Below are positions 3,768 through 33,081 of a DNA stretch of 64,000 bases, one piece after another. Below the pieces are notes generated by a model that was not told where the DNA came from, did no database searches, and worked only from the letters and a program-made list of their open reading frames with translations. Origin of the DNA: Mesonia aquimarina (GTDB lineage Bacteria; Bacteroidota; Bacteroidia; Flavobacteriales; Flavobacteriaceae). Both the position numbers and the translations under genes were made by a program. The stretch is taken from assembly GCF_003667275.1 (NCBI RefSeq), contig NZ_RCNV01000001.1, forward strand, positions 62,001 through 126,000, given 5' to 3'. Positions within the stretch are counted from its first letter, which is position 1; every line of letters starts with the position of its first letter.

Positions 3768-5914
3768 TAAGTTCTTCTAGATCTAGATTTTTCAGTTCTT
3801 AATAAGGCAACTCTTATATCTTCACCACGTATAGAAGTTTCTGCTATATACCCGCTACCGGAATCACCATTAACATCGGCAATCATTCCGCGTAGTTTAT
3901 CTAATGGCGCAATTACTTCAGGATTTGTTTTTGCACCGGAATATTCTCCCATTAATCCAACCGTAGGACCGTTAACAATACCACCATCTGCAAACTTTGG
4001 TATAGATGCAAAAGCAGATAAAACACCACCAACAGCAGTAGCAATAAAAGCGGGTTGTGCAATTACAGCACCGGGACCGGTAAACAAAGCAGATTGTGTT
4101 CCCGAAGCAATTGCGTTAGCAACAGCCTGAGAAAGCAACATAGAAATTAATTCTGTTACCGTTTTTGCCATATTTTTTAAAAAACCTTGCATTCCGGTAT
4201 TCGCTAAATCTAAAGCATCTAAAAATCTGCCCGTAAAATTTTCAAAAGAACCGGCAACTTCATCACCAACAATTCTACCTACTTCAGAAAGGCGCTGCAT
4301 TTTTATAATAACTTCTTCTAAACCATTCTTTACATAATCTGCTTGCTCCGGTACACTATCAGCTAATTCTTCTAAAGGTGAAGGCAAACCACGCATACTT
4401 AAAGAACTAACCGTACTTACTTGCTCCCTAGCTTTACCACCACCTGTAGATACTGGCGTATCTTGATCTATAGGGTTTACCTTAGAAACATCTACTTCAT
4501 CTACCGTAGCTTTGGCAACTAGCTCAATTTTTTCTTTTTGTTGAACGCGATCTAAAGAATCTTTTAAATTGTTATCTAAATTTTTACTGAATTTCTCGTA
4601 GTCTTTTTGAATACCATCTAAAAAGCCGCCAAAGTTTTTACCGGTTTCTAGCAATCCCTTATTTAAAATCTTTGGTATTTCAGATATATTTCCGGTAAGA
4701 ACAGCTTTAAAAACTTCGCCAATTGTACCGAAAATAGATTTTATATTTTCACCTACGTGTTCTAATAAAGTTAGCAAGCCATTAAAAATAAGTTTACCAA
4801 CTTCAAACAAGGTTTTAAAAGTTAAAATGATGCTTTCAACAATTACCCGAAAGGCAATACTTTCATTATACAGATCTATAAAGTAATTTGCCAAATCTAT
4901 TAAAGTGGCTTTTATAGGCTCCCAATACTTATAAATAATTACACCTACAGCAGTAAGCGCGGCAATTACCAATCCAACAGGACCGGTTAAAATTGCAAAG
5001 CCCGAAGCTAGGGCAGGAAGTATGGTTGTAGCTAAAGTTCCCAATGCTAACAAAACAGGACCTAAAGCCGCCGCTAAACCGGCAACCACCACAATTATTT
5101 TTTTAGTATTTTTATCTAACGAACTAAATTTTTCTATTAAAGAAGTTACAAAAGTTGCCAGCTTCTGTACGTAGGGTAAAATAATTTCGCCAAACTGAAC
5201 CGCTAAATCATTTAACCTAGCTTTAATCAATCGCATTTGGTTTGCAAAACCATCGCTAGTTCTTGCATAATCGCCAATTGCATTTTTGCTTTGTTCTTGC
5301 GCAAGTTGCAAAGTAGCAAAAGCTTTTGCCTGGCGTTCGGTTTCAAACGTTAAGCCCTGTTGCGTATTTTGTAATACACGCGCTTTAACATCGGCTTCTA
5401 AAATAGAAATCCCTAAAGATTTAACGCTTTCTCGTTCCCCTAATAGCGCTTTGGTTAAGGCTTGTGACGCACCTTCTGCGCCACCGGAATAATTGGTAAA
5501 CGATGCTAAATCTACTGCAAGCTTGTTTACTTCAGTAGATAAGTCTAAGGCAGATGCTTGCGAAAAACCAAAACCGGTTAATAAATCTCCCGTATCAGAA
5601 AGTAATTGTTTAGAAGCTTTAGAACTTAAGCCGTAAGAGTTTCTTAAAATATCTGCCGATTCTTTTGCAGATTCAGAAATACTAGAAAATACGGTATCAA
5701 ATTTTGCTGAAGTTTCTTCTGCATCGCTTGCCGCTTTTACAAAAGCAACCCCCAAACCGGCAACAGGCAACGTAACACCAAGTGTTAAATTACGCCCTAC
5801 ATTTTGCATTTGCTTTCCGGCTTTATTCAACTGCTTTTGCGCATTTTGCAATTGCGAGCTAAACTGCTTTAAATCAGCATTAAATCTGATGGAAATTTTC
5901 GCAAATGAGGACAT
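3767..5914 (-). CDS. Phage tail tape measure protein, TP901 family
   Basis: This 715-residue protein sets tail length and is threaded through the tail tube. The N-terminus has long heptad-like helices (QFSSQLQNAQKQLNKAGKQM) followed by the Ala/Gly-rich TP901-type core (about residues 50-250). Hydrophobic segments lie near residues 270-330, as usual in tape measure proteins that also help DNA enter the cell. It lies between the G/GT-type chaperone genes and the tail tip gene, the universal order. The ATG at 5914 is the first good start. 169 bases separate it from the GT frame, an unusually long gap for this operon, and that gap contains a 25-bp repeat. Confidence 0.93.
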   Translation of the reverse strand: MSSFAKISIRFNADLKQFSSQLQNAQKQLNKAGKQMQNVGRNLTLGVTLPVAGLGVAFVKAASDAEETSAKFDTVFSSISESAKESADILRNSYGLSSKASKQLLSDTGDLLTGFGFSQASALDLSTEVNKLAVDLASFTNYSGGAEGASQALTKALLGERESVKSLGISILEADVKARVLQNTQQGLTFETERQAKAFATLQLAQEQSKNAIGDYARTSDGFANQMRLIKARLNDLAVQFGEIILPYVQKLATFVTSLIEKFSSLDKNTKKIIVVVAGLAAALGPVLLALGTLATTILPALASGFAILTGPVGLVIAALTAVGVIIYKYWEPIKATLIDLANYFIDLYNESIAFRVIVESIILTFKTLFEVGKLIFNGLLTLLEHVGENIKSIFGTIGEVFKAVLTGNISEIPKILNKGLLETGKNFGGFLDGIQKDYEKFSKNLDNNLKDSLDRVQQKEKIELVAKATVDEVDVSKVNPIDQDTPVSTGGGKAREQVSTVSSLSMRGLPSPLEELADSVPEQADYVKNGLEEVIIKMQRLSEVGRIVGDEVAGSFENFTGRFLDALDLANTGMQGFLKNMAKTVTELISMLLSQAVANAIASGTQSALFTGPGAVIAQPAFIATAVGGVLSAFASIPKFADGGIVNGPTVGLMGEYSGAKTNPEVIAPLDKLRGMIADVNGDSGSGYIAETSIRGEDIRVALLRTEKSRSRRT

Positions 5915-5963
5915 AAAAAGGCTTTTTATAAGTACTAAAAGTACCCGAAGCCTATGTTTCTAT

Positions 5964-5988
5964 AAGGAACAATTTGTTTCTTTTTAAA
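5964..5988. repeat. 25-bp direct repeat, copy 1 (upstream of tape measure gene)
   Basis: These 25 bases, beginning AAGGAACAATTTG on plus, are identical to 12729-12753. The flanking bases differ at once on both sides. The inner part GGAACA-ATT-TGTTTC is an imperfect palindrome. This copy lies 50-74 bases upstream of the tape measure start. Possible roles are a late-gene operator or a recombination site. Confidence 0.9.
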
Positions 5989-6082
5989 CGAAAAAAAGCA
6001 GCCCGAAAGCTGCTTATATTTCCTGCGGAATTATAAAAAGACACGCTCCCCGTTTACGTGCTGAAAAAAATAAAACCGCAGG

Positions 6083-6804
6083 TTATTTTTTTGGTGTTCG
6101 TTTATCAATATCTTTCCAAAACGCTTTAATTTCTTCGGGTGTTTTGTTCTTCTTTTTTGCACTTTTCTTATCCCACGGCAACGCGTAAAGTTGTTCTAAA
6201 CTTTTTTGCGCATCTTGTTTTTTTAAATGTGGCCGCAGCATACTTACCACCAATTCGCGGTGCATTTCCCAATGCTCACGGTTTTGCGCCTTTTCCTTAT
6301 CTATAAGTTTTGTTTTGCCTTTTACAATATTAGCAAAAGTACGCGGCGTGGTGCTGTAAAATGCTACTTCAGAAAAACCGAGAATCCCTAAAGCAAGTTC
6401 TTCCAGCTCGTCCCAGGTTACTTCTTTTTGGTTGCTTTCTTTCCCGGCTTCTTCCCGGGCTTCGGGTTTCCCTGGCTAGGCATACTTTTTTGAAAAGCAT
6501 CCATTACAATAGAGAGTTTACCACCTAAAAACAAAATGTTTAGTAATTCATCTTTATTTGGTAAATCTAAATTAGGATCTGCATTTGTAATTGCCGAAAA
6601 AACAAGATCAGCAACTTTATCTCCAGATTCAAAAGTTATCTCAACTTCTTCATCTTTTTTTGCTTGCGGAAAAGCCGCCTGTATTTCATTAATAACAGAT
6701 TGCATTCCCGGGCAATTCCATTTTTCACCAAGTAAACGGAAAGCACCGTACCCGAATTTAATCGGGTAGGCTTTTCCTTGTATTTCTATTTTTTCAGTTG
6801 CCAT
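6083..6804 (-). CDS. Tail assembly chaperone fusion (G-T type), made by -1 ribosomal frameshift
   Basis: The frame downstream of the G-type gene (6083-6439) has no start of its own that explains its length. It is open back through the 3' end of the upstream gene in the -1 frame. Slipping at GGGAAAG (6445 to 6439) joins 122 residues of the upstream product to 118 residues, beginning ...ESNQKEVTWDELEELALGI and ending DKRTPKK, for a 240-residue fusion. Lambda gpG/gpGT and many siphophages make tail chaperones this way, with the fusion recruiting tail tube subunits to the tape measure protein. Position between the tail tube and tape measure genes agrees. A 60-residue start at 6265 exists but would drop about half of the conserved extension. 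Confidence 0.85.
6418..6804 (-). CDS. Tail assembly chaperone (G-like), unshifted product
   Basis: A 128-residue acidic protein with a strongly basic tail (GKKPGKKATKKK) starts at ATG 6804, three bases after the tail tube gene. By position it is the G-type tail chaperone that coats the tape measure protein during assembly and is absent from the virion. The core (residues 1-105) has a segment YGAFRLLGEKW seen in chaperones of this class. The last codons hold the slippery heptamer that yields the longer G-T product in a minority of translations. Confidence 0.82.
   Translation of the reverse strand: MATEKIEIQGKAYPIKFGYGAFRLLGEKWNCPGMQSVINEIQAAFPQAKKDEEVEITFESGDKVADLVFSAITNADPNLDLPNKDELLNILFLGGKLSIVMDAFQKSMPSQGNPKPGKKPGKKATKKK
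6439..6445 (-). promoter_or_regulatory. Programmed -1 ribosomal frameshift heptamer GGGAAAG
   Basis: Read on the minus strand the zero-frame codons are CCG GGA AAG, giving G GGA AAG, the same heptamer used in the lambda G-T genes. After the slip, reading continues GAA AGC AAC in the frame that is open to 6083. The zero frame stops at 6418-6420, seven codons further on. The 3' stimulatory structure, if any, was not modelled. Confidence 0.85.
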
Positions 6805-6806
6805 AA

Positions 6807-7238
6807 TTACGCAGGGTTTATTTCTACTTTATTAAGTTTGTTTGTACCACTTAACGAGATAGAAGTAGTTGCATCTTCATTTACTGGCGCAGTTAAATCT
6901 AGTTGAGAAATAAAAGCCGTTCCGGTAAGCTTGTAAGTTGCATCATCTTCATCAGGTACAAATTCAATTGCAATTGAATCGGTACTATCATCATCGTACA
7001 TATCAAACACTAAAAAGAAATCGTTAGTATCGGTTCCATCGCCGTTGTAGGTTGCCAACGCATCCATTGTGGCAGTCCAGGATTTTTTTCCTTTCGCACG
7101 TTCAATACCATCGGTATCTTTTGTTATTCTATCTCTAATTTCTCGCGTTAGCGAAAGCGAGCAACTTGTAGCGTGGTAAACAGTACCATCATCTAAAGTT
7201 AACCGCAACTCGCCATTAATTACTTTTTCTCCAGCCAT
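6807..7238 (-). CDS. Phage major tail tube protein
   Basis: The 143-residue protein starts MAGEKVINGELRLTLDDGTVYHATSCSLSLTREIRDRITKDTDG. It has the all-beta pattern and size of TP901-1-type major tail proteins, which polymerise into the tail tube. The acidic stretch DMYDDDSTDSIAIEFVPDEDD and a C-terminal set of hydrophobic strands fit that fold. It lies directly before the G/GT chaperone genes and after the tail completion gene, the standard place for the tube gene. Confidence 0.88.
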   Translation of the reverse strand: MAGEKVINGELRLTLDDGTVYHATSCSLSLTREIRDRITKDTDGIERAKGKKSWTATMDALATYNGDGTDTNDFFLVFDMYDDDSTDSIAIEFVPDEDDATYKLTGTAFISQLDLTAPVNEDATTSISLSGTNKLNKVEINPA

Positions 7239-7258
7239 TGCTTTTAGGTTTTATGCCG

Positions 7259-7621
7259 TTAGGCGTTATTAATTTTAGTTTCAAATTTTAAGTGTACGTA
7301 AGCGCTTTTTGCTTCGGTATCGGTATAACCTGGCTTTGCGCCTCTATCGTGCCAGCGGTGTTTTTCTGTTACCGTATCACGAATAACAGAAGCAATTCTA
7401 GAAACTTCATTTAAAGTTTCTGCATAAACAAAAACTGATATTTTTACAGGAATCATTCTTTCCTTAGTTCCGTAGCCTTCAGCTTCAAATACATAGGTTG
7501 AAAAAGGGTATTCCGTGTTTTCTTCAGCTAACTCCCAAAATATTTTATTACTCCCAATTTCAGAAGTAATATCACTATCAGTTAAAACTGCACCTATATT
7601 TTCTGCTATTGTAACTATCAT
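7259..7621 (-). CDS. Tail completion / neck protein, DUF3168-like
   Basis: A 120-residue protein whose ATG overlaps the stop of the HK97-gp10-like gene (shared bases 7618-7621). DUF3168 proteins cap the tail at the neck (tail terminator). The central SVFVYAETLNEVSRIASVIRDTV segment and the ...RGAKPGYTDTEAKSAYVHLKFE end match what I recall of the family, but the family is short and divergent. Position just before the tail tube gene supports the call. Confidence 0.72.
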   Translation of the reverse strand: MIVTIAENIGAVLTDSDITSEIGSNKIFWELAEENTEYPFSTYVFEAEGYGTKERMIPVKISVFVYAETLNEVSRIASVIRDTVTEKHRWHDRGAKPGYTDTEAKSAYVHLKFETKINNA

Positions 7622-8112
7622 TTGCTTAACTTATCAATTTCACGTTGTATTACGCGTTCTGCTTGTTGCTCGTATTTTGAAACCGCGCTTTGTTCTACTG
7701 AAGAAAACGCTGCATCTCTCGCTTTTTCTACTACGGTATTTTTGCCTTTACGGCTACCGCGTTTATTACTTCCTACACGCGTACCTTTTTTAACGACCAT
7801 AAATCGGTAATAAGCATCGTGTTTTCCCTTTTTACCTGGGCGAATAACTACCGAAGGATTGCCACCGACTTTACTAGCCGGAACTGTTTTTGTTGAAACA
7901 GATTTAGAAAGCGTTCCCGCCGGGTATTCTGTACCAAACCTTCTTTTATCTCGCGTACCTACAGGAAGATTCCTTGCGTAGGCTTGCTCTAATGGCTTGG
8001 CTAACTTGCGTTGAATTTTTAAGATTTCTTTACGGGTTACCCGATCGTCAAGTTTTTTTAACTTTCGGTTTAGCTCGTTAAATCCTTTTATTTCAACTAC
8101 ATCTTTAGCCAT
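7618..8112 (-). CDS. HK97 gp10-like neck protein
   Basis: The 164-residue basic protein starts MAKDVVEIKGFNELNRKLKKLDD, the classic opening of HK97 gp10-type proteins, followed by a Lys/Arg-rich centre (KKGTRVGSNKRGSRKGKN). These proteins are neck or minor tail components joining head to tail. It overlaps the head-closure gene by eight bases and the DUF3168-like gene by four, consistent with coupled translation. Confidence 0.85.
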   Translation of the reverse strand: MAKDVVEIKGFNELNRKLKKLDDRVTRKEILKIQRKLAKPLEQAYARNLPVGTRDKRRFGTEYPAGTLSKSVSTKTVPASKVGGNPSVVIRPGKKGKHDAYYRFMVVKKGTRVGSNKRGSRKGKNTVVEKARDAAFSSVEQSAVSKYEQQAERVIQREIDKLSK

Positions 8113-8455
8113 CTTTTCGGCTGGTTTTTAACTCTAAAAAACGCTTCATTTTTCCTTGCCCAATAGGTAATGCACTGTGTATTTCAAAATCGCCATCATC
8201 TTCTAATCGAATAAAATACTTTGTTCCGTTTTTATTCAAATCTTTACTATAATGAGTAATAAACTTTAAAACTTCCAGCGATCTTATTTTGCCGTCATCA
8301 TCATCTTCTTCACCGGAAACCGGCATTTGCTTTAACCATATTTTTTTAATAAACTCATCAACATATACACGTTCTTGCGTTGGCGTATTAGTATATACAC
8401 GCTTAAATAATTTTCCGCGCGTACTCAATTCGCCTTTATGTATGGTTGTAGCCAT
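8105..8455 (-). CDS. Phage head closure protein (SPP1 gp16-like)
   Basis: A 116-residue protein between the connector and the HK97-gp10-like genes, where head-closure (stopper) proteins lie. It carries ERVYVDEFIKKIWLKQMPVSG and SLEVLKFITHYSKDLNKNGTKYFIRLEDDGDFEIHSALPIG, in line with the small beta-barrel of this family. It shares one base with the connector gene's stop. Assignment rests on order, size and general pattern. Confidence 0.72.
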   Translation of the reverse strand: MATTIHKGELSTRGKLFKRVYTNTPTQERVYVDEFIKKIWLKQMPVSGEEDDDDGKIRSLEVLKFITHYSKDLNKNGTKYFIRLEDDGDFEIHSALPIGQGKMKRFLELKTSRKDG

Positions 8456-8997
8456 TAGTATTTTTTATACGGTCTTAATTTTGCTTTGGCAGCAGTTTCC
8501 ATTTTTATGGGTCCGTTTTCGCGGTAGGTATCTTGTTGTGCAAAAATTAATAAGGCCGCCGCTTTAATATCGGCTGGCATATCGGTTTCTGAATAGCCAA
8601 TTTTACAATTTACCGTAACCGAACCACCAAAGTTTTCGGGTTCTGCAATATCTAAACGAAGCATATTATTGCCTGTTATTAAGGTATAATCTGCCGCATC
8701 TATAGTTTGCGTGTTATCGTCTTTATCTTGATAGGTAACCGAAGTTATTTCTGCTAATCGCTCTGAAGGCACAAAACTTTTAAACCATTTATCTATTTGT
8801 ATTACGCAATCTTCACGCAATAAAACAGGATAACCAACATAGTTTTCAATTTCAGCAGAAGCAGAATCAACAAAGATTTGAAGTAACGGATCTTCATCTT
8901 CAAACTCAATTTTGCTATTCATTTTCGCCATTTCTAACGAAACAATTTTTACATCTGCGGCTTTGTTGCCAACTTCTATAACTTCGTAAGCCATCAT
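8455..8997 (-). CDS. Phage head-tail connector protein (gp6-like)
   Basis: The 180-residue protein has SLEMAKMNSKIEFEDEDPLLQIFVDSASAEIENYVGYP, a variant of the helical hallmark of gp6/gp15-type adaptors (LKxHLRID...DD..L...I.aA...iE.Y.g), and ends with AAALLIFAQQDTYRENG. The family forms a ring beneath the portal. It is placed downstream of the capsid gene and upstream of the head-closure gene. Two Met codons start it (MM); either may be used. Confidence 0.85.
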   Translation of the reverse strand: MMAYEVIEVGNKAADVKIVSLEMAKMNSKIEFEDEDPLLQIFVDSASAEIENYVGYPVLLREDCVIQIDKWFKSFVPSERLAEITSVTYQDKDDNTQTIDAADYTLITGNNMLRLDIAEPENFGGSVTVNCKIGYSETDMPADIKAAALLIFAQQDTYRENGPIKMETAAKAKLRPYKKY

Positions 8998-9006
8998 AAT
9001 AGGTTT

Positions 9007-9378
9007 TTAAACTTCTTGTACATCACCGGCTTCAATCATTTCTGCCGCTTGTTTTTCTTCAATCTCGAAAGTTTGCCCTTTGCTATAAGAAAGCAAGTAT
9101 TTACCCGCCAAATTGCCCACCAAAGCTTTTACTTTCTTCATTCCTTTTTTGGTAGAAGATTTCTTTTTCTTTTTAGTAGGTTTTTTCGGTGCTTTTGTCG
9201 GGTTGTTTTCAGCATTTTCAGCATCTTTAATATCTTCCGGTTTCTTTTCTGCTGTTTCGGCTTTACCTTCGGTATCTGAAGCAGTTTCTTTTTTAGTTTC
9301 CGGCGCTTTTACTTCTTGCGCATCGGTAACTTCTGCATTTTTTACTTCATCTGAAGTTTTCGTTTTTTTAGTCATCAC
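9007..9378 (-). CDS. Charged Lys/Glu-rich phage protein of unknown function
   Basis: Of 123 residues, the first ~85 are a low-complexity Lys/Glu/Ala stretch, probably disordered. The last ~40 (KALVGNLAGKYLLSYSKGQTFEIEEKQAAEMIEAGDVQEV) look like a small folded unit resembling the short C-terminal module often encoded beside capsid genes. It sits between the capsid and connector genes. It may be a head decoration or head-completion protein; I do not recognise a named family. Confidence 0.6.
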   Translation of the reverse strand: MMTKKTKTSDEVKNAEVTDAQEVKAPETKKETASDTEGKAETAEKKPEDIKDAENAENNPTKAPKKPTKKKKKSSTKKGMKKVKALVGNLAGKYLLSYSKGQTFEIEEKQAAEMIEAGDVQEV

Positions 9379-9456
9379 ATTAAGTTTTTAAAACAAAGCC
9401 TTTACCCGTCCAGCAAAGGCTTTGTTACAGTTATTGAATTGACAGATTCAAAAAGA

Positions 9457-10782
9457 TTACGACAAAGTAATTTTCTTATTAACCGCAAAACCTTCAGGGT
9501 TTGCCGCCATAATATCACGATGAACGTTAACGATCATTCTAATTTCATTACTAGAAGCTTTTGTGTAAGGATCTAACGTAAAGTTAATTCCACCCCAGAA
9601 GCCAGCATATACATTTGAAAAATCACCGTAAATTAATGGGTAATTATCATCAGTACCTGAAAGAACCGGAAGCAAAGAAGTTTTTACGGTATCGGTACCA
9701 TAAAGCGTATTTTGCTTATCCATTAAAAATTGACCGCTACCAGAATCAATTGTAATTCCTTTTGCCAAGGCAGCTAATTTTTTATGAATTAAGAAAATAG
9801 GATCTCCCATTACATTTTCATCATCAACTTCACCTTCTAATTCTAGAATTTTAGCCAATGTTAGCGGACCTTCAGCGCCACCAAAAACAAAAGCTAAATC
9901 TGGATCGTTTAATAAACCTAAGGTATTAGGCGCATTACCATCACCATTTAACATATCTAACATTAAACGCTTGTTTAATGCAGTTGTAATTCTTTGACGT
10001 ACATCTTGCTCAATATTAAAAGCCGATTGCGCAATTAACTGATAAGAAATAGCGGTTTCTAAAGCCGTTCTTTTAGGACTTAGCACGCGCTTGTCATACG
10101 TTACTTTTTGAGATGTAGTACTTGCAGTTTCTGCTAAGTTCTCAAAAGTAAATTCACCACCACGATTTAACGGGTAATCACCGTTTAAACCTCTTTTAAT
10201 AGTAACACCTAAATCTTCAATCTTCAAGCGATCTACAAAAGTTGGTAACATTTCGCCCATTTCTTCGCGAACTAATTTACCACCATAGTTTCCGCTATCT
10301 TGCGTAACGGTGTGGCTATCTGCACGAAACATCATTTCGCTAGGAATATTCATTCCGCGTGCAGGAACTTTTAAACCTTGATCTCTCAATTCATCTTTAG
10401 CAATTTCGTTTACTTCAGACTCCACACCATCAATAGAACGGTTTTCAAGCTGAAGCTCCATTGCTCTTTTCATAGAGAATTGAGACATAATTTTACGCTT
10501 TTCCGCAGCTTCGCCTTTTTCAGCTTTACCACCGGTTCTTTTTTGCGGATCGTTTTTAGGCGTTCCGTTTAAATCGGCAGCACGTTTAGCCGATTCATCC
10601 ATTTTCTTTTGGCGCTCAATTTTCTTATCGAACTCCTTAATCTCGGTATCTAAAGCATCAAATCTTTTTTCCTGATCGTCGTTCATATCTCGACTTTCAG
10701 AATTTTGTGCTTCATCTACGATTGCCTGTTGAGCCTTTACTTTTTCGGCTCGCTGTTGTTGTAATTCTGCTAACTTGTTCAT
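9457..10782 (-). CDS. Phage major capsid protein, HK97 family
   Basis: The 441-residue product begins with a long charged helical region (residues 1-~110, MNKLAELQQQRAEKVKAQQ) that acts as a built-in scaffold in HK97-like capsids and is removed by the prohead protease. The rest has the HK97 core pattern, ending DPYTKASSNEIRMIVNVHRDIMAANPEGFAV. It directly follows the prohead protease gene (three bases between). Length is slightly above the HK97 norm of about 385. Confidence 0.95.
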   Translation of the reverse strand: MNKLAELQQQRAEKVKAQQAIVDEAQNSESRDMNDDQEKRFDALDTEIKEFDKKIERQKKMDESAKRAADLNGTPKNDPQKRTGGKAEKGEAAEKRKIMSQFSMKRAMELQLENRSIDGVESEVNEIAKDELRDQGLKVPARGMNIPSEMMFRADSHTVTQDSGNYGGKLVREEMGEMLPTFVDRLKIEDLGVTIKRGLNGDYPLNRGGEFTFENLAETASTTSQKVTYDKRVLSPKRTALETAISYQLIAQSAFNIEQDVRQRITTALNKRLMLDMLNGDGNAPNTLGLLNDPDLAFVFGGAEGPLTLAKILELEGEVDDENVMGDPIFLIHKKLAALAKGITIDSGSGQFLMDKQNTLYGTDTVKTSLLPVLSGTDDNYPLIYGDFSNVYAGFWGGINFTLDPYTKASSNEIRMIVNVHRDIMAANPEGFAVNKKITLS

Positions 10783-10785
10783 TTT

Positions 10786-11466
10786 TTAATAGCGATTTTG
10801 ATTAACAATTAATTGAGCGCGAAAAACATCAAGGCTTCTTGACGCTCTTTTATTTTCTTCTTCCTGTTTTTCTTCGGAAGATTTATTGTCGTTTTTACGT
10901 TGTTCTTTGTGTTGCTCGAAACTTCTTTTCCCTACTTCTGCATCTTCATAAGCAGGAAATGTTACGGGAGAAACATCGTATATTTTAGATATTTTTTTGA
11001 TTTGGCGTAGTTCCTTATCATTTTCATCTGTAGCATCGTGCCAAATAACTTCACTAGCTTGAAAAGCAAATGAAGATTGAGAAACATCACCTAATTCTAT
11101 AGAAGTCTGTAAATCTCTCGCGTAACTAATATCTGGTGTTATGTAAGAATATTTTAAGCCTTTTTCATCTACAGAAAGTGTTAATGTTCCCTTACCGTCT
11201 TTAGAACGAGCCAAAATTTTATTTGGATTATGATTAAAAAGACATCTAACGTCATCATTTAAAACATCGTCGAAAGCACCAGGTAAAATTTCTTCTTCAA
11301 ACCAAAATAAATCTGCACGTTTATTAAAAACAGCAGCATAACCTTCAATTTCAGCAGGTTTTTCTTCTTCGCCTTCTTCAGCTCGCTTTTCAACCGTAAC
11401 AGGTGTTACAAAATAGCGTCTTTCAGCGCCTTCTATTTTATCGATATAATCACGCTCCTTGCTCAT
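10786..11466 (-). CDS. Prohead protease, HK97 family (S78-type)
   Basis: The 226-residue protein carries IEGYAAVFNKRADLFWFEEEILPGAFDDVL and DVRCLFNHNPNKILARS, with the catalytic His of the family in LFNHN. The serine region is DVSQSSFAFQ. It cleaves the capsid N-terminal arm during maturation. The tail is charged and probably self-cleaved. It overlaps the 3' end of the portal gene by 17 bases, and the order portal-protease-capsid is standard. Confidence 0.94.
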   Translation of the reverse strand: MSKERDYIDKIEGAERRYFVTPVTVEKRAEEGEEEKPAEIEGYAAVFNKRADLFWFEEEILPGAFDDVLNDDVRCLFNHNPNKILARSKDGKGTLTLSVDEKGLKYSYITPDISYARDLQTSIELGDVSQSSFAFQASEVIWHDATDENDKELRQIKKISKIYDVSPVTFPAYEDAEVGKRSFEQHKEQRKNDNKSSEEKQEEENKRASRSLDVFRAQLIVNQNRY

Positions 11467-12658
11467 TTTCTATCTGTTTTTTAAGTTGTTGTTCGTTTAG
11501 AAGATTAGACATTTGCAAAAATTCATCGCCGCCATCGTAAGGGTTCATATCTTCTAATTGTCTTATTTCATTTGGATTTATAGCCTTCACAAATGTTAAG
11601 TCTTTATAGAATTGCCCGCGTGCTTTAGGGTCGACTTGCAATAATTTTTTAAAGTTTTGATGTATATGAAAACCTTGCTTTATTTCAGTTGAAGTAAAAA
11701 GCTTCACTTCAAATTCTTGCTTAAACTTTTCAGCAAAAGGCATTACGGCACGGTGTAAATAATCAATTTCCATTTGCGTTAAGAAATTGTAACCGCCTTC
11801 ACCCGGAATTGCCAATTTATGTGCCGGCATCTGAAACCATCTTGCAACATCTGAAACGCCACTTGCGTAGGTTTCTATAAATTGTGCTTCGGCTGGTTTT
11901 AATGTTATCGGTTTGTATTTCATCCCTTCATCGAGTAGGGGAGCGCGGTGCTTTTGCCCGGAACTCATTGCATCTGAAAAGGCTTTGCTTATTTCTTTTT
12001 TCTTATCTAATTTTACAGATAGTTCACTTTCTAAAACTCCTTGTGATATTCCGCGATCTTGTAAGGAATCGCTACCAAATTTTTGCGCATAAAGCGAAAC
12101 GCCTAAATTATCTGCTGCATATTCTAATACTGATCTACCGCATACGCCATCAAAAGAAAAGCCGGGGATATGCAATATTTCATCTGAAGAAAAAAGATTT
12201 CCTTTAATTCTGTACCATAATTTGCCTTCGTAATCTATTACGCTTACCTGGTCGGGATCTATAAACTGTAAGGATGCTACTTGACCGGCGCCATTACGCA
12301 CAATTAAGGCATAAGCGTTACCGCGCATCATAACAGCAACCGCCATTATAAATTTAAAAACAAAAGCCGTCATATAATTGTTGGGCTTTCGGTATAATAA
12401 ATAGTCTATAGAGTGGTCCGGCTGATGTTTGTTGGTGTTATCTTTTTTTAGATAAACCGACATCGGCAAAAGTGCCAACGAGTTTGCTACGGTGTTTACC
12501 GCTGCATAAAAAGCCGAAATGGTAAGTGATGTTTGGGTGTTTACGCTTTTAGAAGCTTCGGTTAAGCGTATAGGAAACAAAGAGGCCATTCCCGAAATTG
12601 GGTTTGACCTTTTTGAGACTAACTGCGAAATTGCATTTTCAAATAAATTGCTTCCCAT
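11450..12658 (-). CDS. Phage portal protein
   Basis: A 402-residue HK97-type portal: ISAFYAAVNTVANSLALLPMSVYLKK near the N-terminus, GNAYALIVRNGAGQVASLQFIDPDQV in the middle and the helical stem/crown region with MPAHKLAIPGEGGYNFLTQMEIDYLHRAVMPFAEKFKQEFEVKLF. The dodecameric portal is the DNA entry gate of the head. It is the first gene of the head block. Unusually, the terminase genes are not next to it but 4.7 kb away, past the recombinase/cassette-like insert and small genes. Confidence 0.95.
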   Translation of the reverse strand: MGSNLFENAISQLVSKRSNPISGMASLFPIRLTEASKSVNTQTSLTISAFYAAVNTVANSLALLPMSVYLKKDNTNKHQPDHSIDYLLYRKPNNYMTAFVFKFIMAVAVMMRGNAYALIVRNGAGQVASLQFIDPDQVSVIDYEGKLWYRIKGNLFSSDEILHIPGFSFDGVCGRSVLEYAADNLGVSLYAQKFGSDSLQDRGISQGVLESELSVKLDKKKEISKAFSDAMSSGQKHRAPLLDEGMKYKPITLKPAEAQFIETYASGVSDVARWFQMPAHKLAIPGEGGYNFLTQMEIDYLHRAVMPFAEKFKQEFEVKLFTSTEIKQGFHIHQNFKKLLQVDPKARGQFYKDLTFVKAINPNEIRQLEDMNPYDGGDEFLQMSNLLNEQQLKKQIENEQGA

Positions 12659-12768: not shown

Positions 12769-13569
12769 TTAAATTGGCGTATTGGTTTGTGATAAAAAAC
12801 TATTAGAAATATGTGTATATATTTCTGTGGTTTTACTGCTTTTGTGGCCCGCTATTTTTTGAATGATTCTAATATCGGTTCCGGTTTCTAGCATTGTAGT
12901 AAAACAGCTATGGCGTAACAAGTGAAAATGATAGCTTGCTCCTAAATATTTTTTTACTAATTGATTGCAACTGGAAGTGGTGTATTTTAATTTATTTTGA
13001 CCGTTAAATAAATATTCTACAGGTTTATATTGCTGAAAATATTTTCTTAGAAGGAATAATAATTTTTCACTTAACGGAACGTAACGATCATTACCTCCTT
13101 TAGCATTTCTAATTGCTATTAAATTTCGCTTGGAATCTATATCTTTTATTTTAAGATTAATAACTTCACTCACCCGAAGCCCAACACTATAAGCTACACT
13201 TAAAATGGCTTTGTGTTTTAAATTATCTATTTCTGAAATGGTTTTAATTAAATAATTTTTCTCGATTACCCGCGGAAGTTTGTTTTCCTTTTTAGGGTAA
13301 GGTATTTTAGAAACTTTATTTTTCATCCCAATTGTTAATTTATAGAATAACTTTACCGCACAAAGATTTTGTTTTCGGGTGTTTAGTGTTTTAAAACTAA
13401 GTAGATATTCTTTAATTTTCTCATTAGGTATTGCTTTTGGTTCGGTTTCGTTTTCAAAATGATTTAGAAACTTAAGCACATTAATTTCGTAACATTTAAT
13501 TGTGCTTTCAGAATTGTATTTCAATCTTAAATCATTCGAAAACTTTAAACTCCATTTTCGAATATTCAT
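12769..13569 (-). CDS. Xer-like tyrosine recombinase inside the phage structural block
   Basis: The 266-residue protein has an N-terminal SAM-like core-binding domain (SESTIKCYEINVLKFLNHFENE) and a full catalytic domain: Arg in VGLRVSEV, Lys in NAKGGNDRYVPL, HxxR in HFHLLRHS, His in AGHKSSKT and the nucleophile in TEIYTHIS. It is about 30-60 residues shorter than usual XerC/D and integron IntI proteins. It lacks the extra helical insert that IntI has before the HxxR box. It is a second recombinase in the same prophage, with three small genes and GTTAT-cored hairpins on its 5' side. It may mobilise those genes, or the local 25-bp repeats; neither is proven. Confidence 0.9.
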   Translation of the reverse strand: MNIRKWSLKFSNDLRLKYNSESTIKCYEINVLKFLNHFENETEPKAIPNEKIKEYLLSFKTLNTRKQNLCAVKLFYKLTIGMKNKVSKIPYPKKENKLPRVIEKNYLIKTISEIDNLKHKAILSVAYSVGLRVSEVINLKIKDIDSKRNLIAIRNAKGGNDRYVPLSEKLLFLLRKYFQQYKPVEYLFNGQNKLKYTTSSCNQLVKKYLGASYHFHLLRHSCFTTMLETGTDIRIIQKIAGHKSSKTTEIYTHISNSFLSQTNTPI

Positions 13570-13706
13570 AATATATTAGTTGATTTTAGTGGTTTAACAG
13601 TTGGTTTTTATATATAGTAGTTATAGTGCAATAAAAACTGCCGAAGCTAAAAAAAGAAAGCAATATGACGTTTATCAACGCTCTACCAGCCGCATAGACG
13701 TTTTTA

Positions 13707-13770
13707 CGGCACATAACTAAGAATATAACAAATGCTTGGGTTTTATATTTTAATCGAAATTATGGCTGCG
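13707..13770 (-). repeat. attC-like imperfect hairpin D
   Basis: CGGCACATAACT (13707-13718) and AATTATGGCTGCG (13758-13770) are imperfect inverted copies. They enclose the last codon and stop of the 80-residue gene and a 39-base loop. In gene direction the site ends AGTTATGTGCCG, near the GTTRRRY core of integron attC sites. The rest of the 190-base interval up to the recombinase start holds no gene. Confidence 0.45.
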
Positions 13771-14002
13771 TTTTATTTTTTGCCAACGCTAATAGATTAG
13801 GATTTACTTCAAATTTAGATTTATCTATATTATTATGTTCGCAATATTTTAAAAGACCATAGTACCAGTTTTCGTTTAATTTCTCAATAGGTCTATATTC
13901 AACATCATATAGAAAATCTTTCATTTCTGCTACCTTAAAACCGTCGCTGTGCCACGTTCCAAAAACAACATTAAACATTTCTATTAAATTTTTATCATCC
14001 AT
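13760..14002 (-). CDS. Cassette-like small protein (80 aa), unknown function
   Basis: An 80-residue acidic protein (MDDKNLIEMFNVVFGTWHSD...KNKTQP) with aromatic-rich centre NENWYYGLLKYCEHNNIDKS. It has no signal peptide, membrane segment or catalytic motif that I can see. It is the nearest of three small genes to the Xer-like recombinase and its stop lies inside an imperfect hairpin, as cassette genes often do. Function unknown. Confidence 0.6.
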   Translation of the reverse strand: MDDKNLIEMFNVVFGTWHSDGFKVAEMKDFLYDVEYRPIEKLNENWYYGLLKYCEHNNIDKSKFEVNPNLLALAKNKTQP

Positions 14003-14031
14003 AATTTATATTTTTGCCTTTGCGCTAAAAA

Positions 14032-14108
14032 ATAAAACGCTCGACGGTTAGTAATTGTATTTAATTTTGTGCTTAAAGGCGCACTTGCCATATTCATATC
14101 CGTTATAT
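14032..14108 (-). repeat. attC-like imperfect hairpin A
   Basis: On plus, ATAAAACG (14032-14039) and CGTTATAT (14101-14108) form inverted arms with one mismatch. Between them lies a second short hairpin, GTGC...GCAC (plus 14069-14084). The 3' arm includes the stop of the 109-residue gene. Weak taken alone; considered because it repeats the layout of sites C and D. Confidence 0.3.
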
Positions 14109-14432
14109 GCAATGCTCTGTTCCGTTCCAAACCAACCTTTGTTCGTCTAATTTAGAATAGTATTCATTCATTTTTTCACTACCTACAACCTTTTTTAGTT
14201 CCTGCTTCCAGAAATCTTTTTCAAGATTATGCAGTTCGTTAGAGCGAATAAGCTTAGCTGTTTCGCTTGGGTTTTTTATTGCATTGTAATTAATGGTTGC
14301 TAATCTTAGTCTAAATCCTGATATTATTGCTCTAACTTTAGGTATCAAGACTTCTTTACTAAAGTAAGGTTCTTCCCTTATAGCTTGTACTAAGATTTCT
14401 GTAAGTTGTTTTGTACTTGTTTCTCTACTCAT
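14103..14432 (-). CDS. Cassette-like small protein (109 aa), unknown function
   Basis: The start is placed at ATG 14432 (MSRETSTKQLTEILVQAI). The longer frame to 14513 would overlap the upstream gene and translate the repeat region, so it is rejected. The product is a helical, mixed-charge protein (SETAKLIRSNELHNLEKDFWKQELKKVV) without recognisable motifs. The stop codon lies within ATATAACGG, one of the repeated GTTATAT cores. The 9-mer GCATATAAC/GTTATATGC flanks the gene in inverted orientation (14102-14110, 14465-14473). Function unknown. Confidence 0.55.
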   Translation of the reverse strand: MSRETSTKQLTEILVQAIREEPYFSKEVLIPKVRAIISGFRLRLATINYNAIKNPSETAKLIRSNELHNLEKDFWKQELKKVVGSEKMNEYYSKLDEQRLVWNGTEHCI

Positions 14433-14464
14433 TTTAATTAAATTTATAGTTAATAATCCGCACA

Positions 14465-14487
14465 GCATATAACACGTGTTGTGCATA
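14465..14487 (-). repeat. Compact palindromic site B between two cassette-like genes
   Basis: The site contains GCATATAAC (14465-14473), the perfect palindrome AACACGTGTT (14471-14480) and GTGTTGTGCATA (14476-14487). The last is the inverse of TATGCACAACAC at 14954-14965, on the other side of the YopX-like gene. Outer bases GCACA and GCTGTGC on minus also pair. It is shorter than a typical attC. Confidence 0.5.
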
Positions 14488-14493
14488 ATACAA

Positions 14494-14940
14494 CTAAAAG
14501 CACGTAGCATCATAAACGGACTTGTTTAACATTTCTGGGGTTTCATAAATATTTCCAACAATCTCATAATGCCAATGATTATTTAAAACATTTGAATCTG
14601 GCCACATAATTTGACTTCCAAAAGCATTTAATTCAGATCTAAAATCATCTTCATTTTGATTAGTAATTGGAAAAGAGTTCCATCTATATTTATCCCATTT
14701 TATTTCGTAATAATAATGAGTTGCTTCATTCGAGTAGAACAAACTATCCTTGTCGGTACACCTTAATAAGTCGCCTTCAAAAATTTCAACTTGATTAATA
14801 TCGTTCAATCCAGTTCCACGCATAACAATTAAGTCGTCAAATTCTTCATTTGTTAATCGAGCGGAATTAATTAGAATTGCCTTTAAACTATTGTTTGGTA
14901 ACATTTTTTTTCTTGATTTGCTATAACTTCTAAAATTCAT
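14494..14940 (-). CDS. YopX-family phage protein
   Basis: The 148-residue protein contains the two hallmark segments of YopX: MRGTGLNDINQVEIFEGDLLRC and the C-terminal HWHYEIVGNIYETPEML. YopX proteins are common in temperate phages of Gram-positive bacteria and Bacteroidota; their function is not established. The gene is bracketed by an inverted 12-mer (14476-14487 and 14954-14965) and site C lies upstream. The last codons run into site B. The start at 14940 gives a slightly longer N-terminus than usual; a start at the second Met (14904) is possible. Confidence 0.8.
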   Translation of the reverse strand: MNFRSYSKSRKKMLPNNSLKAILINSARLTNEEFDDLIVMRGTGLNDINQVEIFEGDLLRCTDKDSLFYSNEATHYYYEIKWDKYRWNSFPITNQNEDDFRSELNAFGSQIMWPDSNVLNNHWHYEIVGNIYETPEMLNKSVYDATCF

Positions 14941-14966
14941 AATTAAAAAGTACTATGCACAACACC

Positions 14967-15074
14967 GTATAACCGCCATTGCATCTGATTTTCCTTTCGG
15001 AAAATCCTCGCAATTGTCTGTGTTTTGGCTTATTAATATTCATAATTTCTTTATTTTGCAACGGACGGTTATAC
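14967..15074 (-). repeat. attC-like hairpin C (108 bp) with GTATAAC/GTTATAC ends
   Basis: Plus-strand arms GTATAACCGCCATTGCA (14967-14983) and TGCAACGGACGGTTATAC (15057-15074) are inverted copies. They differ by two mismatches and one unpaired base, the asymmetry expected of single-strand-recombined attC sites. The loop contains a perfect 8-bp hairpin GATTTTCC-TTTC-GGAAAATC (14987-15006). TATGCACAACAC (14954-14965) adjoins it. Length and end motifs fit the attC range, but the cores are GTTATAC rather than strict GTTRRRY. Confidence 0.65.
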
Positions 15075-15103
15075 TTTCCGTTACCAAAAATTAAAACATT
15101 TTG

Positions 15104-15505
15104 CTAACTAGCTTTTTGTTGATTTTCTAACCAGGCATCACGTTGCTTTTTAAATTCCATAGTAGATCCTATTTGGCTGATGGCTTCAGATGCATTTTTG
15201 CATCCTAAAGATTTTGCAAAGAGCAAAGATTTTTCGTGGCCATCCATATCTGCTATTTGCTTTTGGGTGGTTTCTTCAATTTTTAATTGATCTTTAGCAG
15301 TTTCTACACCAAAACTTTCATCAGGTTGTTTTTCTTTGCCTAGTTTTGCGCTAAATTTTAAGGCGTCTAATTGCAGTTTGTGATTACTGATAATTGTGTT
15401 AGAAATATCTACTACAGATTTTACCTTTTGCGGCTCTACCTTATCTTCTATAACTTCTTGGACTAGTTTAAAAAGTCCGTTGTTTAAATCGCTTAAATTT
15501 TCCAT
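15104..15505 (-). CDS. Hypothetical phage protein (133 aa)
   Basis: A helical, charged protein (MENLSDLNNGLFKLVQEVIEDKVEPQKVKSVVDISN...) with no enzymatic motif. The segment VEPQKVKSVVDISNTIISNHKLQLDALKF resembles proteins often found just before phage terminase or HNH genes in Bacteroidota phages, which have been suggested to act with packaging. That link is only from memory. It overlaps the start of the HNH gene by one base, so the two are probably translated together. Confidence 0.6.
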   Translation of the reverse strand: MENLSDLNNGLFKLVQEVIEDKVEPQKVKSVVDISNTIISNHKLQLDALKFSAKLGKEKQPDESFGVETAKDQLKIEETTQKQIADMDGHEKSLLFAKSLGCKNASEAISQIGSTMEFKKQRDAWLENQQKAS

Positions 15506-25707: not shown

Positions 25708-26463
25708 ATGAAAAAAACTTTACAATATATTTTTAGTACAATATTTTTACTCATAGGATTTGTTTGGGTGTTTTTTGCACCCATTGCCGGTTCACTTTTT
25801 CTTTTAGCGGGTTTATTTATACTACCAATTATCTCTTCTCAAATCAAAATAAAAAGTTTTTTAAAGTATGTAGTAGCTATTGTGCTTTCTATTTCAGCAT
25901 TTGCAGCGTTAGGATATACTATTGCAGATTTAGGAGAAGAACAAGCACATAAAAAACGCAAAAAAAAATCAAATTCCACAGAATATGCTTTAGAAGTTTT
26001 AACAGAAATGAATGATTCTGTTTATAATAAATTAAAGCGTGATTCACTTGAAATTAAATATTTTCAAAAAGAAGATTTGAATAAAAACTTTTTATCACTT
26101 TTAAAAGAAAACTCCCATAAAAGAGATAGCTTATTAGAAGAAAATCGTAATAAAAAAATTAATGATAGCCTTAATAAAATTACAAAAGCTGAAGAAAAAG
26201 CAATTGCAGAACGTGATGAAATCATTCAAAAGCAATTTAGTTCTTGGAATGGAGCGCATAGAAATTTAGAAAACCTTATTCAAAAAAATATGAATGACCC
26301 AGATAGTTACGAACATATTAAAACTGTCTATTTTGATAAGGGCGATCATTTAATTGTTATCACTTCTTTTAGAGGAAAAAACGCTTTTAACGCCACCATA
26401 AAAAATTCAATCACCGCAAAAGTTGATTTAAATGGAAATGTAATAGAAGTTATTGACCAATAA
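25708..26463 (+). CDS. Lysogeny-side membrane protein with coiled coil (251 aa)
   Basis: Three membrane segments in the first 75 residues (FLLIGFVWVFFAPIAG, LFLLAGLFILPIIS, YVVAIVLSISAFAALGY). A charged coiled-coil region follows (about 100-175), then a small C-terminal domain, SSWNGAHRNLENLIQKNMNDPDSYEHIKTVYFDKGDHLIVITSFRGKNAF, similar to short domains attached to exported phage or host proteins. It lies between repressor and integrase on the lysogeny strand and converges on the integrase with a 14-base overlap. It may be expressed from the prophage and act in superinfection exclusion; this is inference from position. Confidence 0.6.
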   Translation: MKKTLQYIFSTIFLLIGFVWVFFAPIAGSLFLLAGLFILPIISSQIKIKSFLKYVVAIVLSISAFAALGYTIADLGEEQAHKKRKKKSNSTEYALEVLTEMNDSVYNKLKRDSLEIKYFQKEDLNKNFLSLLKENSHKRDSLLEENRNKKINDSLNKITKAEEKAIAERDEIIQKQFSSWNGAHRNLENLIQKNMNDPDSYEHIKTVYFDKGDHLIVITSFRGKNAFNATIKNSITAKVDLNGNVIEVIDQ

Positions 26464-27661
26464 TTTTCAATTGCGCGGCATCGCGTTCAGCTTCGGGGTA
26501 TTTGTCTTTGTAAACCGTATCTATATCATTACGTTCGTGGCCCATAAGTTCGCGCAATAGATCTTCTTCTATACGGGCAAATTTACCCATAGTCGCAAAG
26601 GTGTGGCGCATTACTTTACTGGTTAAATTATCATTTTTAGGCAGCAATTCTATTGCCAGGCGTTTTTGTAAAATCTTTAGGTTCCGGTTATGATTATCTC
26701 TAAATGTTTTGTAAGAAGTCCACGCTTTTGGCCACGAGAATAAATATTCTTTTTTCGGGTTATCACATTTATATTTATCAATAATATGCTGGGCTTTTTC
26801 AGTCAGCAGAATATCAAATTCATACTGCCGGTCGCCCAACTTTCTACGCGTTAGAAAAACCCGGTTATTACTAAGATCATTCTTTTTTAAGTAATAAATA
26901 TCAATTAGATCGGCGCCACAAAAATAAAACTGAAGCAAACAAAAATCAATTGCCCGCTGGTAACTAGGATGTTCTAAACTCAAATTTTCAAATTCGCGCA
27001 AAGTTTCTTCTGAAAGATAGCGGTTTTTTGCCCGCCGCTTTTTTATTTTTACACCATCTAACGCCCCAATAAATGGTTTTTTATCTTCAATAACACCAGC
27101 TTTTACCGCGGCATTGTAATTTGCGCGTATGGTTGCAATGTAAACCCGAATGCTTGTATTTTTATTACCAAGTTCTTTCTGGTAATTTTTAAAGCGCTCT
27201 ATAAATTGCGGGGTAATATCTTTAAAATTCAGTTGCGGCGAAAATGTTTCAAAAGCCTTTTTTGCATCTCGATAGATAGAAGCGTTCCCATTTCGGTTTT
27301 GGCTTTCCATTAGTTTAATTCTTTTATCCATCCAGGAATAAAAATTTAAACTAACAGTAGGTTTTTTATCTGAAAAAAAATCAAATGCCGCCGGAAAATC
27401 ATCAAGTTTCCTAAAATCAGAAAGCACCGCTTTTTTACGAATGTCTAAAATAGTAGTGTATAGATCTTCAAAATCATCGTGCGAAGGCAACGGAAGGTTA
27501 GAAGTTAAATCCCAATCTTCTTCAAAAGAATACCCAATTGTTTTTCTTCTCGTTTTTCTATTATGCGAAATAATCAGTTTCACCGGAAAACCATATTCGC
27601 CTTGGCCGTCGGTTTTATATAATTTTACTGTAGCTTTCATTCGTAAACTTTTCGTAAACAA
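26450..27661 (-). CDS. Prophage integrase, tyrosine recombinase with arm-binding domain
   Basis: The 403-residue protein has an N-terminal arm-type DNA-binding domain (ATVKLYKTDGQGEYGFPVKLIISHNRKTRRKTIGY), a SAM-like core-binding domain (about 100-210) and a catalytic domain. The box with the first Arg reads FYFCGADLIDIYYLK, so the usual Arg is not in place, as known for the CTnDOT-type integrase IntDOT. The HxxR box is KVMRHTFATM, the His is MGHERND and the nucleophile is in VYKDKY. It sits at the right end of the prophage, next to tRNA-Pro. Confidence 0.92.
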   Translation of the reverse strand: MFTKSLRMKATVKLYKTDGQGEYGFPVKLIISHNRKTRRKTIGYSFEEDWDLTSNLPLPSHDDFEDLYTTILDIRKKAVLSDFRKLDDFPAAFDFFSDKKPTVSLNFYSWMDKRIKLMESQNRNGNASIYRDAKKAFETFSPQLNFKDITPQFIERFKNYQKELGNKNTSIRVYIATIRANYNAAVKAGVIEDKKPFIGALDGVKIKKRRAKNRYLSEETLREFENLSLEHPSYQRAIDFCLLQFYFCGADLIDIYYLKKNDLSNNRVFLTRRKLGDRQYEFDILLTEKAQHIIDKYKCDNPKKEYLFSWPKAWTSYKTFRDNHNRNLKILQKRLAIELLPKNDNLTSKVMRHTFATMGKFARIEEDLLRELMGHERNDIDTVYKDKYPEAERDAAQLKIIGQ

Positions 27662-27759: not shown

Positions 27760-27766
27760 AAGTAGT

Positions 27767-27840
27767 CGGGGTGGCAGGATTCGAACCTGCGACCTCCTGC
27801 TCCCAAAGCAGGCGCGATAACCGGGCTACGCTACACCCCG
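27767..27840 (-). tRNA. tRNA-Pro(TGG)
   Basis: On the minus strand a 74-base cloverleaf: acceptor CGGGGTG with CACCCCG, anticodon loop CTTTGGGA with TGG, and T-arm GGTTCGAATCC. No encoded CCA follows. Its 3' end faces the integrase, a common phage attachment position. Confidence 0.95.
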
Positions 27841-27909
27841 ATAATGGTTATCTGTTTGCGAGTGCAAATATAAAATTAATTTTTACTTTTGCAAACTCTT
27901 TTTTTCTGG

Positions 27910-27991
27910 CGGAGAGACCGGGATTCGAACCCGGGCATCCCGAAGGATGACAGCTTAGCAGGCTGCTGCATTACCACTCTGCCACCTCTCC
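27910..27991 (-). tRNA. tRNA-Ser(GCT)
   Basis: On the minus strand: acceptor GGAGAGG with TCTCTCC, anticodon loop with GCT (CTGCTAAG), a long variable arm (CATCCTTCGGGATG) as in serine tRNAs, discriminator G, and an encoded CCA at 27907-27909. Confidence 0.94.
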
Positions 27992-29353: not shown

Positions 29354-29359
29354 ACTAGA

Positions 29360-29390
29360 TTTTCTTTATGGGGTAAATATACTACATTTG
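29360..29390 (+). promoter_or_regulatory. Bacteroidota-type promoter of the pigment operon
   Basis: TTTT (29360-29363), 19 bases, then TACATTTG (29383-29390), close to the -33 TTTG / -7 TAnnTTTG consensus. Transcription would begin near 29397, so the ATG at 29424 is used rather than the in-frame codon at 29388, which lies in the -7 element. Confidence 0.65.
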
Positions 29391-29423
29391 CGCAAGCTGC
29401 TATTGTTAGAATTTTTCAGAATT

Positions 29424-30962: not shown

Positions 30963-30964
30963 AT

Positions 30965-31696: not shown

Positions 31697-31700
31697 AAAT

Positions 31701-32594: not shown

Positions 32595-32595
32595 G

Positions 32596-33039: not shown

Positions 33040-33050
33040 GCAAAAATCGT

Positions 33051-33071: not shown

Positions 33072-33081
33072 CTGTATTCAA

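Follow-up and report, generated by a model that had tools for sequence, protein, structure and literature searches.

A probable phage-borne integron with a Xer-like recombinase lacking the IntI insert in Mesonia aquimarina

Introduction

Class 1 and chromosomal integrons show a recombinase at the start of an array of gene cassettes, an attI site adjoining it at which cassettes are inserted, cassette boundaries at G/TT, and bottom-strand hairpins with an extra base. These traits recur, in the window or in its relatives, in the system of the locus described here, a recombinase gene with three small genes inside a prophage block of Mesonia aquimarina (assembly GCF_003667275.1, contig NZ_RCNV01000001.1, positions 62,001 to 126,000; this whole stretch of 64,000 nucleotides is called the window). 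Unlike those integrons, the locus has a recombinase without the IntI insert, which belongs to clades of its own and goes with a different family of sites; the recombinase and the cassette genes are on one strand, and in the phage arrays read these genes run against the sites. As judged by sequence comparison, the locus is very probably a small phage-borne integron, not defined by IntI, with a Xer-like recombinase lacking the I2 helix.

Phage integrons and attC clusters are described by Qi et al. (2023, PMC9892861), likewise integron parts in phages; the integrases reported there are of the IntI type, and the word Xer is absent from the main text. In the "Integron-like" subgroup of Smyshlyaev et al. 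(2021, PMC8138268) the insertion is likewise not fully conserved, and the passages on it, unlike the present analysis, do not describe arrays, sites or Bacteroidota cassettes. Use of folded single strands by integron integrases is credited to the I2 helix as the enabling innovation (eLife 2020, PMC7790495), a view that becomes testable with a widespread system having the same kind of sites and no I2. Integrons have been recorded from Bacteroidota (PMC2426708, PMC8618304, PMC9668308). Since IntegronFinder 2.0 names a single complete integron in Bacteroidetes proper, that of Salinibacter ruber M1 (PMC9024848), this phylum may contain a large, overlooked reservoir of mobile genes. Among the matches listed for titles and abstracts of the open-access literature, a scope that leaves out preprints and most subscription journals, there is no description of such a system.

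Cassette array of the window

A first-pass annotation, made from the letters of the window, had described a short tyrosine recombinase with a full catalytic set, three short genes transcribed toward it, and GTTAT-cored, attC-like sites (A to D) near the gene boundaries (Table 1). A cassette is a circle before its insertion, so that its starting bases (GTT...) must be the reverse complement of its ending bases (...AAC). The longest GTT-led reverse-complement pairs were sought in 13560-15115. Three pairs tile the array without overlap: 13770 with 14027-14038 (12 bases), 14478 with 14954-14963 (10 bases) and 14102 with 14465-14473 (nine bases). A fourth pair of nine bases, 15080 with 14894-14902, is not a cassette because its end precedes its start. 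In 3000 dinucleotide shuffles a chain of three was found in none and a chain of two in six. At the level of sequence, the GTT boxes are confirmed as cassette boundaries, and this part of the annotation stood.

The tiled array occupies 13619-15080. It begins at an attI-like junction, 50 bp ahead of the start of the recombinase gene, and its first base is preceded by TATATAGTA. The junction recurs in phages: [CT]ATATA[GA]TA/GTT is located about 30-52 bp from the recombinase start in eight of 14 phage rows, window included (two of the rows, L011 and L012, are one sequence), is nearly matched in L015 and L020, and is absent in L014, L017, L019 and L115. An attI beside the recombinase gene is clearest in the Freya phages described below, and in the window it is recognised by its likeness. 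The stretch next to the junction is a possible geneless cassette, named cassette 0, whose ends match in six of 10 positions ungapped and in nine of nine with one extra A allowed in the start; it is the least sure of the four units.

The three window genes are all on the minus strand, toward the recombinase and opposite to the site direction, and the stop codons of genes 2 and 3 fall in sites A and D, both as annotated. Genes 2 (queried from a longer start) and 3 show zero matches in Pfam or PHROG. A constant trio beside the recombinase, which the annotation had named as contrary to a cassette array, was not seen: tblastn of the three genes against the other loci collected gave nothing at 1e-4.

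Table 1. Features of the recombinase locus and of its cassette array in the window.
Feature	Position	Strand	Details
Portal gene	11450-12658		prophage block; ends before the recombinase gene
Xer-like tyrosine recombinase	12769-13569	-	266 aa, two domains, without IntI insert; Pfam PF00589
attI-like junction	13606-13621	+	TTTATATATAGTA/GTT, boundary 13619
Possible cassette 0	13619-13769	+	geneless; start GTTATAGTGC, end box GGCACATAAC at 13712-13721, then degenerate site D; by eye
Cassette gene 3	13760-14002	-	80 aa; stop codon 13760-13762 just past the boundary, inside site D
Cassette 3	13770-14101	+	start GTTTTATTTTTT, end box 14027-14038, weak site A up to 14104
Cassette 2	14102-14477	+	start GTTATATGC, end box 14465-14473, then site B
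Cassette gene 2	14103-14432	-	109 aa; start at MSRETS, 14432 more likely
Cassette 1	14478-15079	+	start GTTGTGCATA, end box 14954-14963
Cassette gene 1	14494-14940	-	148 aa; YopX-family phage protein, PF09643 49.8 bits (cut-off 22.4)
Open frame within site C	14930-15043	-	37 aa; overlaps gene 1 start by 11 bases; by eye
Site C (attC-like)	14961-15082	+	AAC...GTT core; next box GTTACC at 15080

Recombinase types

The catalytic set of the window recombinase is complete, as annotated: R132, K157, H216, R219, H242 and Y251 are invariant across a 32-row alignment of recombinases (A4). The absence of the IntI insert was also borne out. From the catalytic Arg to the HxLRH motif the window recombinase has 84 residues (read from the identical protein L009) against 131 in 12 of 12 canonical IntI of the same phylum, and aligned to IntI4 (2a3v) it shows a gap where the insert stands. 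This spacing is 84 in ten and 89 in two of the phage-type rows, 89 in the listed rows of a chromosomal type found at the start of chromosomal arrays, and 92-96 in the XerC/D-type rows giving a value. L017, L020 and L130 gave no value, and L127 gave 130 and 89, with no insert in alignment A2. The IntI insert is absent from every array recombinase measured. Against the NCBIfam integron integrase model TIGR02249 the window recombinase scores 129.0 bits and five relatives 117.2-213.4 bits, below the 265-bit cut-off; its best sequence matches among solved structures are 4a8e and 5hxy.

XerA, XerC and XerD have the fold and catalytic residues in common with the window recombinase, which differs from XerC/D in its separate clade, its shorter spacing (84-89 against 92-96 with its relatives) and its place beside cassette arrays. 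A tree of 70 proteins separates IntI (100/100), XerC/D (100/100), the chromosomal type (97/94, 36 rows) and the phage type (97/98, 11 rows), leaves two rows outside and does not resolve the branching order among the four groups. All nine XerC/D rows group together (100/100), and the window recombinase, represented by its identical L009, is not among them. The chromosomal type shows an extra N-terminal domain of about 75 residues with a predicted alpha/beta fold (mean predicted local distance difference test score, pLDDT, of 85.3) and no Pfam match in the two proteins searched; this domain may resemble the HARP domain.

Cassettes in phages and between genomes

The window is not alone among phages. 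Besides it, seven of 17 phage loci with a relative of its recombinase show cassette chains by our reading, with L020 perhaps the eighth; one of the seven, L118, is without a close recombinase and shows only a distant recombinase match. Among 15 phage records searched, a site was found in 12 at an expectation value (E) of 0.05 or less and in 11 at 0.001 or less; six of these records also fed the site model, and the L118 record was included for its sites. The pattern of the site C ends gave 36 matches in IMG/VR, and chance was rejected as their origin, since 31 of them cluster at lengths of 106-111 (84-114 allowed). A 130-bp stretch in another phage (L028, 323-450) is 92% identical to site C (window 14956-15083), and the 2.3-kb locus containing it shows no match with the window beyond this stretch. 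In L010, L012, L018, L114 and L118, several reversed cassette genes start inside the site, and N-termini such as NIGAVMRS and NKGAVRRS are encoded by the hairpin arm.

The Freya phages are co-isolated Polaribacter phages of one host (MT732463-MT732472), with genomes of 44.0-48.9 kb; the words integron and insertion are absent from the main text of the paper on them (PMC8776804). In six of six isolates read (Freya_1, 5, 6, 8, 9 and 10), GTTATAGGGGT/GTT is 47 bp from the recombinase start and the next cassette differs. Freya_6 differs from Freya_5 by an additional 472 bp, and Freya_10 from Freya_9 by an additional 307 bp, in both cases from the GTT at attI to the next GTT, a gain or loss exactly at attI. 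The flanks of the insertions are identical over at least 2000 bp on the recombinase side, and over 464 bp (the end of the available stretch) and 3793 bp on the other side. Both inserts contain a reversed open frame, and the ends of the 307-bp insert match in nine of nine bases. In Freya_10, 4.94 kb lie between attI and the cassette that abuts attI in Freya_1. These phages are a cultured model for watching cassette gain.

Cassettes are also shared between genomes. A cassette of 916 bp is 99.9% identical between Winogradskyella ursingii HL4150 and genome G101, which have array recombinases on different branches of the tree; the match runs from CGTT of one site to CCGTT of the following one, between unrelated flanks. 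Of 41 cross-genome matches, seven were examined at single-base level. Besides the 916-bp cassette, homology ends at GTT on either side in a pair of 87% identity; in a 77% pair one end falls at GTT and the other just beyond AAC; and in a 92% pair both ends fall right at AAC. In the remaining three, two clean box ends were not seen. Cassettes have matching ends, imperfect for some of those in Freya, and are found moving as units.

An ordinary phage or dimer-resolving Xer recombinase beside unrelated small genes, with chance or decorative hairpins, would agree with the XerA and XerD models being the nearest NCBIfam matches of the window recombinase, and with a prophage block being the usual home of small genes of unknown function. 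It would leave unexplained the tiling of the cassettes, the same layout in other phages, the recurring attI and the Freya insertions exactly at attI, and we hold it highly improbable. The window also contains a likelier prophage integrase, a second tyrosine recombinase (26450-27661, minus strand, 403 aa) with a SAM_5 domain, which adjoins tRNA-Pro and tRNA-Ser genes at 27765-27991 and is likely the integrase of this prophage.

Folding of the sites

Site C is as strong a hairpin as annotated, with 16 paired positions plus one extra base and 108 bases from GTATAAC to GTTATAC, and it folds at -18.0 kcal/mol on the bottom strand and -14.0 on the top strand. The covariance model R1, in which site C is itself a row, gives it 78.1 bits (E 2.4e-14) and matches no other site in the window, the next best having an E of 0.22. 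The other sites did not hold up as attC-like hairpins, being weak or stemless and without a model match: site A folds at -3.4 (top) and -3.1 (bottom) kcal/mol, site D at -2.3 (top) and -2.8 (bottom), and site B (14465-14487) is stemless, with four bases between AAC and GTT. Single-strand folding of each site, proposed with the annotation, is therefore favourable to C and not to A, B and D; AAC/GTT sites folding from the bottom strand are found in the family of site C and in C itself.

This family comprises sites of about 120 bases present in 136 of 395 genomes of the phylum (Infernal with stricter filters, at most eight candidates scored per genome). The search for the site C ends in flavobacterial genomes that the annotation had proposed found the pattern in 62 of 149 genomes of the same family of bacteria, against two for the reversed pattern. 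Among the 608 stem cells of 38 aligned sites, one of which is site C of the window, pairing reaches 98.0% on the bottom strand and 84.5% on the top strand. Both sides of the stem change in 15 of 16 pairs, which 0 of 500 shuffles reach, and slid versions of the stem give 26-47% standard pairs. The non-Watson-Crick cells number 96, of which 84 are G.T on the bottom strand only and two on the top only. Over 45 non-redundant sites, the stems show 40 extra bases in the right arm and five in the left. Of 115 sites, 107 fold more stably from the bottom strand and seven from the top, with one tie; 300 control stretches split 162 to 130. In phages the bottom strand is the more stable in 26 of the 28 listed sites (the far end of several being estimated), the others being window site A, which is opposite, and window site B, a tie. 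By these sequences, folding of this one strand is selected.

The polarity toward the bottom strand is the same in phage and chromosomal arrays despite the opposite gene strand relative to the sites. Structure in mRNA would follow the genes and a recombination site need not, so an mRNA function of the stem was rejected. We hold it extremely improbable that the sites are RNA elements, such as terminators or leader structures, or dispersed hairpin repeats. Such elements would also stand between genes, the bottom strand of phage arrays is also the transcribed sequence, and site C contains a short open frame; against them, the bias keeps its polarity in chromosomal arrays with the genes on the other strand, cassette ends match each other, cross-genome homology breaks at GTT, and no Rfam family reaches its gathering score in nine loci searched.

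Linkage of sites and recombinases

The chromosomal type of recombinase is present in 111 of 395 genomes of the phylum: 78 show sites and recombinase, 58 sites alone, 33 recombinase alone and 226 neither. The odds ratio of 9.2 is contrary to hairpins spread widely with no recombinase linkage, the other outcome that the annotation had set against its reading. In a subsample of 118 genomes (rebuilt from handle numbers), canonical IntI is above cut-off in 39, none of them in the members sampled from the bacterial family of the window, and the sites track the I2-less type (odds ratio 8.0) and not IntI (0.71, p 0.43).

These counts bear on a third explanation, in which a canonical IntI moves the cassettes in trans and the I2-less gene is a passenger. 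It draws on the frequency of IntI in the phylum, on the presence of the sites in 15 of the 39 IntI genomes, and on the recombination of several phage attC sites by IntI1 (Qi et al., 2023, PMC9892861). We judge it very unlikely, in view of the odds ratios above, of arrays that begin at the I2-less recombinase, of IntI being above cut-off in 0 of 13 array genomes searched, and of the site model giving zero matches in 16 canonical IntI loci. Qi et al. (2023) include sites of Polaribacter phage P12002L among those tested with IntI1, and their cluster encodes two methyltransferases. P12002L (L251) contains one site of the present family (14503-14624), away from its annotated methyltransferase genes (29248-32126 and 38118-38816), and no integrase is annotated.

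Chromosomal arrays and their mirror image

The genome of the window also contains a chromosomal array. On contig 25 it follows a related recombinase of 383 aa, 40% identical to that of the window in the part common to both, and shows ten cassette links with matching ends on the recombinase strand, one of them a likely chance pair. On the same contig (L098, reverse complement 4877-11107) there is a 6.2-kb multi-gene cassette including a histidine kinase and a chromate transporter. Contig 22 (L110) shows a second chromosomal-type recombinase at the contig end (2130-3320) and family sites at 879-1002 and 1544-1671, and by these sequences the genome may contain a second array there.

The longest chain belongs to genome G068, with 66 linked cassettes, some links toward its end being due to chance, and 80 linked cassettes in all, of median length about 600. 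This genome shows 20 matches of the site C pattern over 68 kb, all in one direction and beside a recombinase relative, and 90 site-model matches by hand count. In 80 named recombinase loci the strict chain test found 34 sites on the recombinase strand and nine on the other, against one and four in the reversed sequence. The site model was applied to 26 of these loci, chosen mainly for available downstream sequence: it gave 64 matches in 19 loci and none in seven. Every match has the orientation of the recombinase gene, and 62 of the 64 are located downstream. Named hosts with sites belong to Winogradskyella, Seonamhaeicola, Arenibacter, Polaribacter, Algoriphagus and Flavobacterium. In chromosomes, attI directly follows the stop codon of the recombinase and often contains a dyad with arms that change together, e.g. 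ATAAACGCAATTGCGTTTAT and ATATAGTAACTTGTTACTATAT (by eye).

Chromosomal arrays come after the recombinase, and their genes share the site direction in 58 of 61 cases in G068 (leaving out cassettes of more than 3 kb and chains under ten, with direction given by the longest ATG frame), in eight of eight in the array of contig 25 and in 66 of 69 in total. Phage arrays lie ahead of the recombinase, and their genes are oriented opposite to the sites in 29 of 29 cases, the three of the window included. Both layouts show the recombinase at the attI end and on the same strand as the cassette genes. Genes reading toward the recombinase, which the annotation had seen correctly and regarded as odd for an integron, are the rule in the phage arrays read. 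Its proposal of a phage-borne cassette system with folded sites and a Xer-like enzyme fits the comparative evidence, and the system extends beyond phages, as chromosomal arrays have it too.

Proposed mechanism and points against it

In the mechanism proposed from these comparisons, the compact Xer-like recombinase would act on the attI that adjoins its gene and on attC-like sites folded from the bottom strand, and circular gene cassettes would be inserted at attI and excised from the array. The catalyst would be the I2-less recombinase itself, only one strand would be exchanged, and the window copy would still be functional. Phage cassette genes, which run against the site direction and thus are on the strand of the late genes and the recombinase, would probably be expressed by read-through. 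The system seems integron-type in its working, yet the usual definition of an integron excludes it, since the test for an IntI insert showed none. With less assurance than for the locus itself, we consider it likely that a second integron lineage exists across Bacteroidota and their phages, whose Xer-like enzyme never had the I2 helix, recombines folded single-stranded sites and would recognise the extra base and the strand by other means, for instance its short core of 84-89 residues or, in chromosomes, the N-terminal domain, and that its mirror-image version in phages keeps swapping cassettes in nature.

Several results weigh against this reading. Since three of the four window sites are weak or stemless, decay of the window copy is possible. 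Pre-selection of the 38 aligned sites required at least five paired bases at the base of the stem, and those pairs by themselves therefore prove little; the wobble bias played no part in the selection, but 38 of its 84 cells come from a single invariant A.C column. The loose chain test has a background, with 57 links forward and 19 reversed, and a convincing chain is lacking in L011, L014-L017, L019, L115-L117 and Cellulophaga phage Ingeline. The Freya recombinase is 36% identical to that of the window, the site model matches two of eight cultured-phage loci (Freya_8 and Freya_10), the ends of the 472-bp Freya insert match over six bases (by eye), and in both Freya_1 and Freya_6 the first cassette lacks a nine-base partner within 9 kb. 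Sites occur without the recombinase, at a strict threshold, in 58 of 136 genomes with sites, and the recombinase without sites in 33 of 111, and another recombinase acting in trans is possible.

That the system is real and the window copy a relic that no longer moves cassettes is a serious possibility, somewhat short of an even chance. The state of sites A, B and D suggests it, as does cassette 0, geneless and with an imperfect start; the recombinase frame is intact with its catalytic residues, and site C is in good order, which argues for a copy that still works.

Other features of the window

A search of viral contigs for close relatives of the portal and of gene 3 recovered the same prophage alone. 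Further along the window, 29388-35336 contains what we take, from the translations, to be a pigment or fatty-acid type pathway cluster (ammonia lyase-like protein, reductase, acyltransferase and ketosynthase), and within it, at 33082-33599, is a pair of small genes presumably encoding a ParE/RelE-like toxin pair, also named from the translations.

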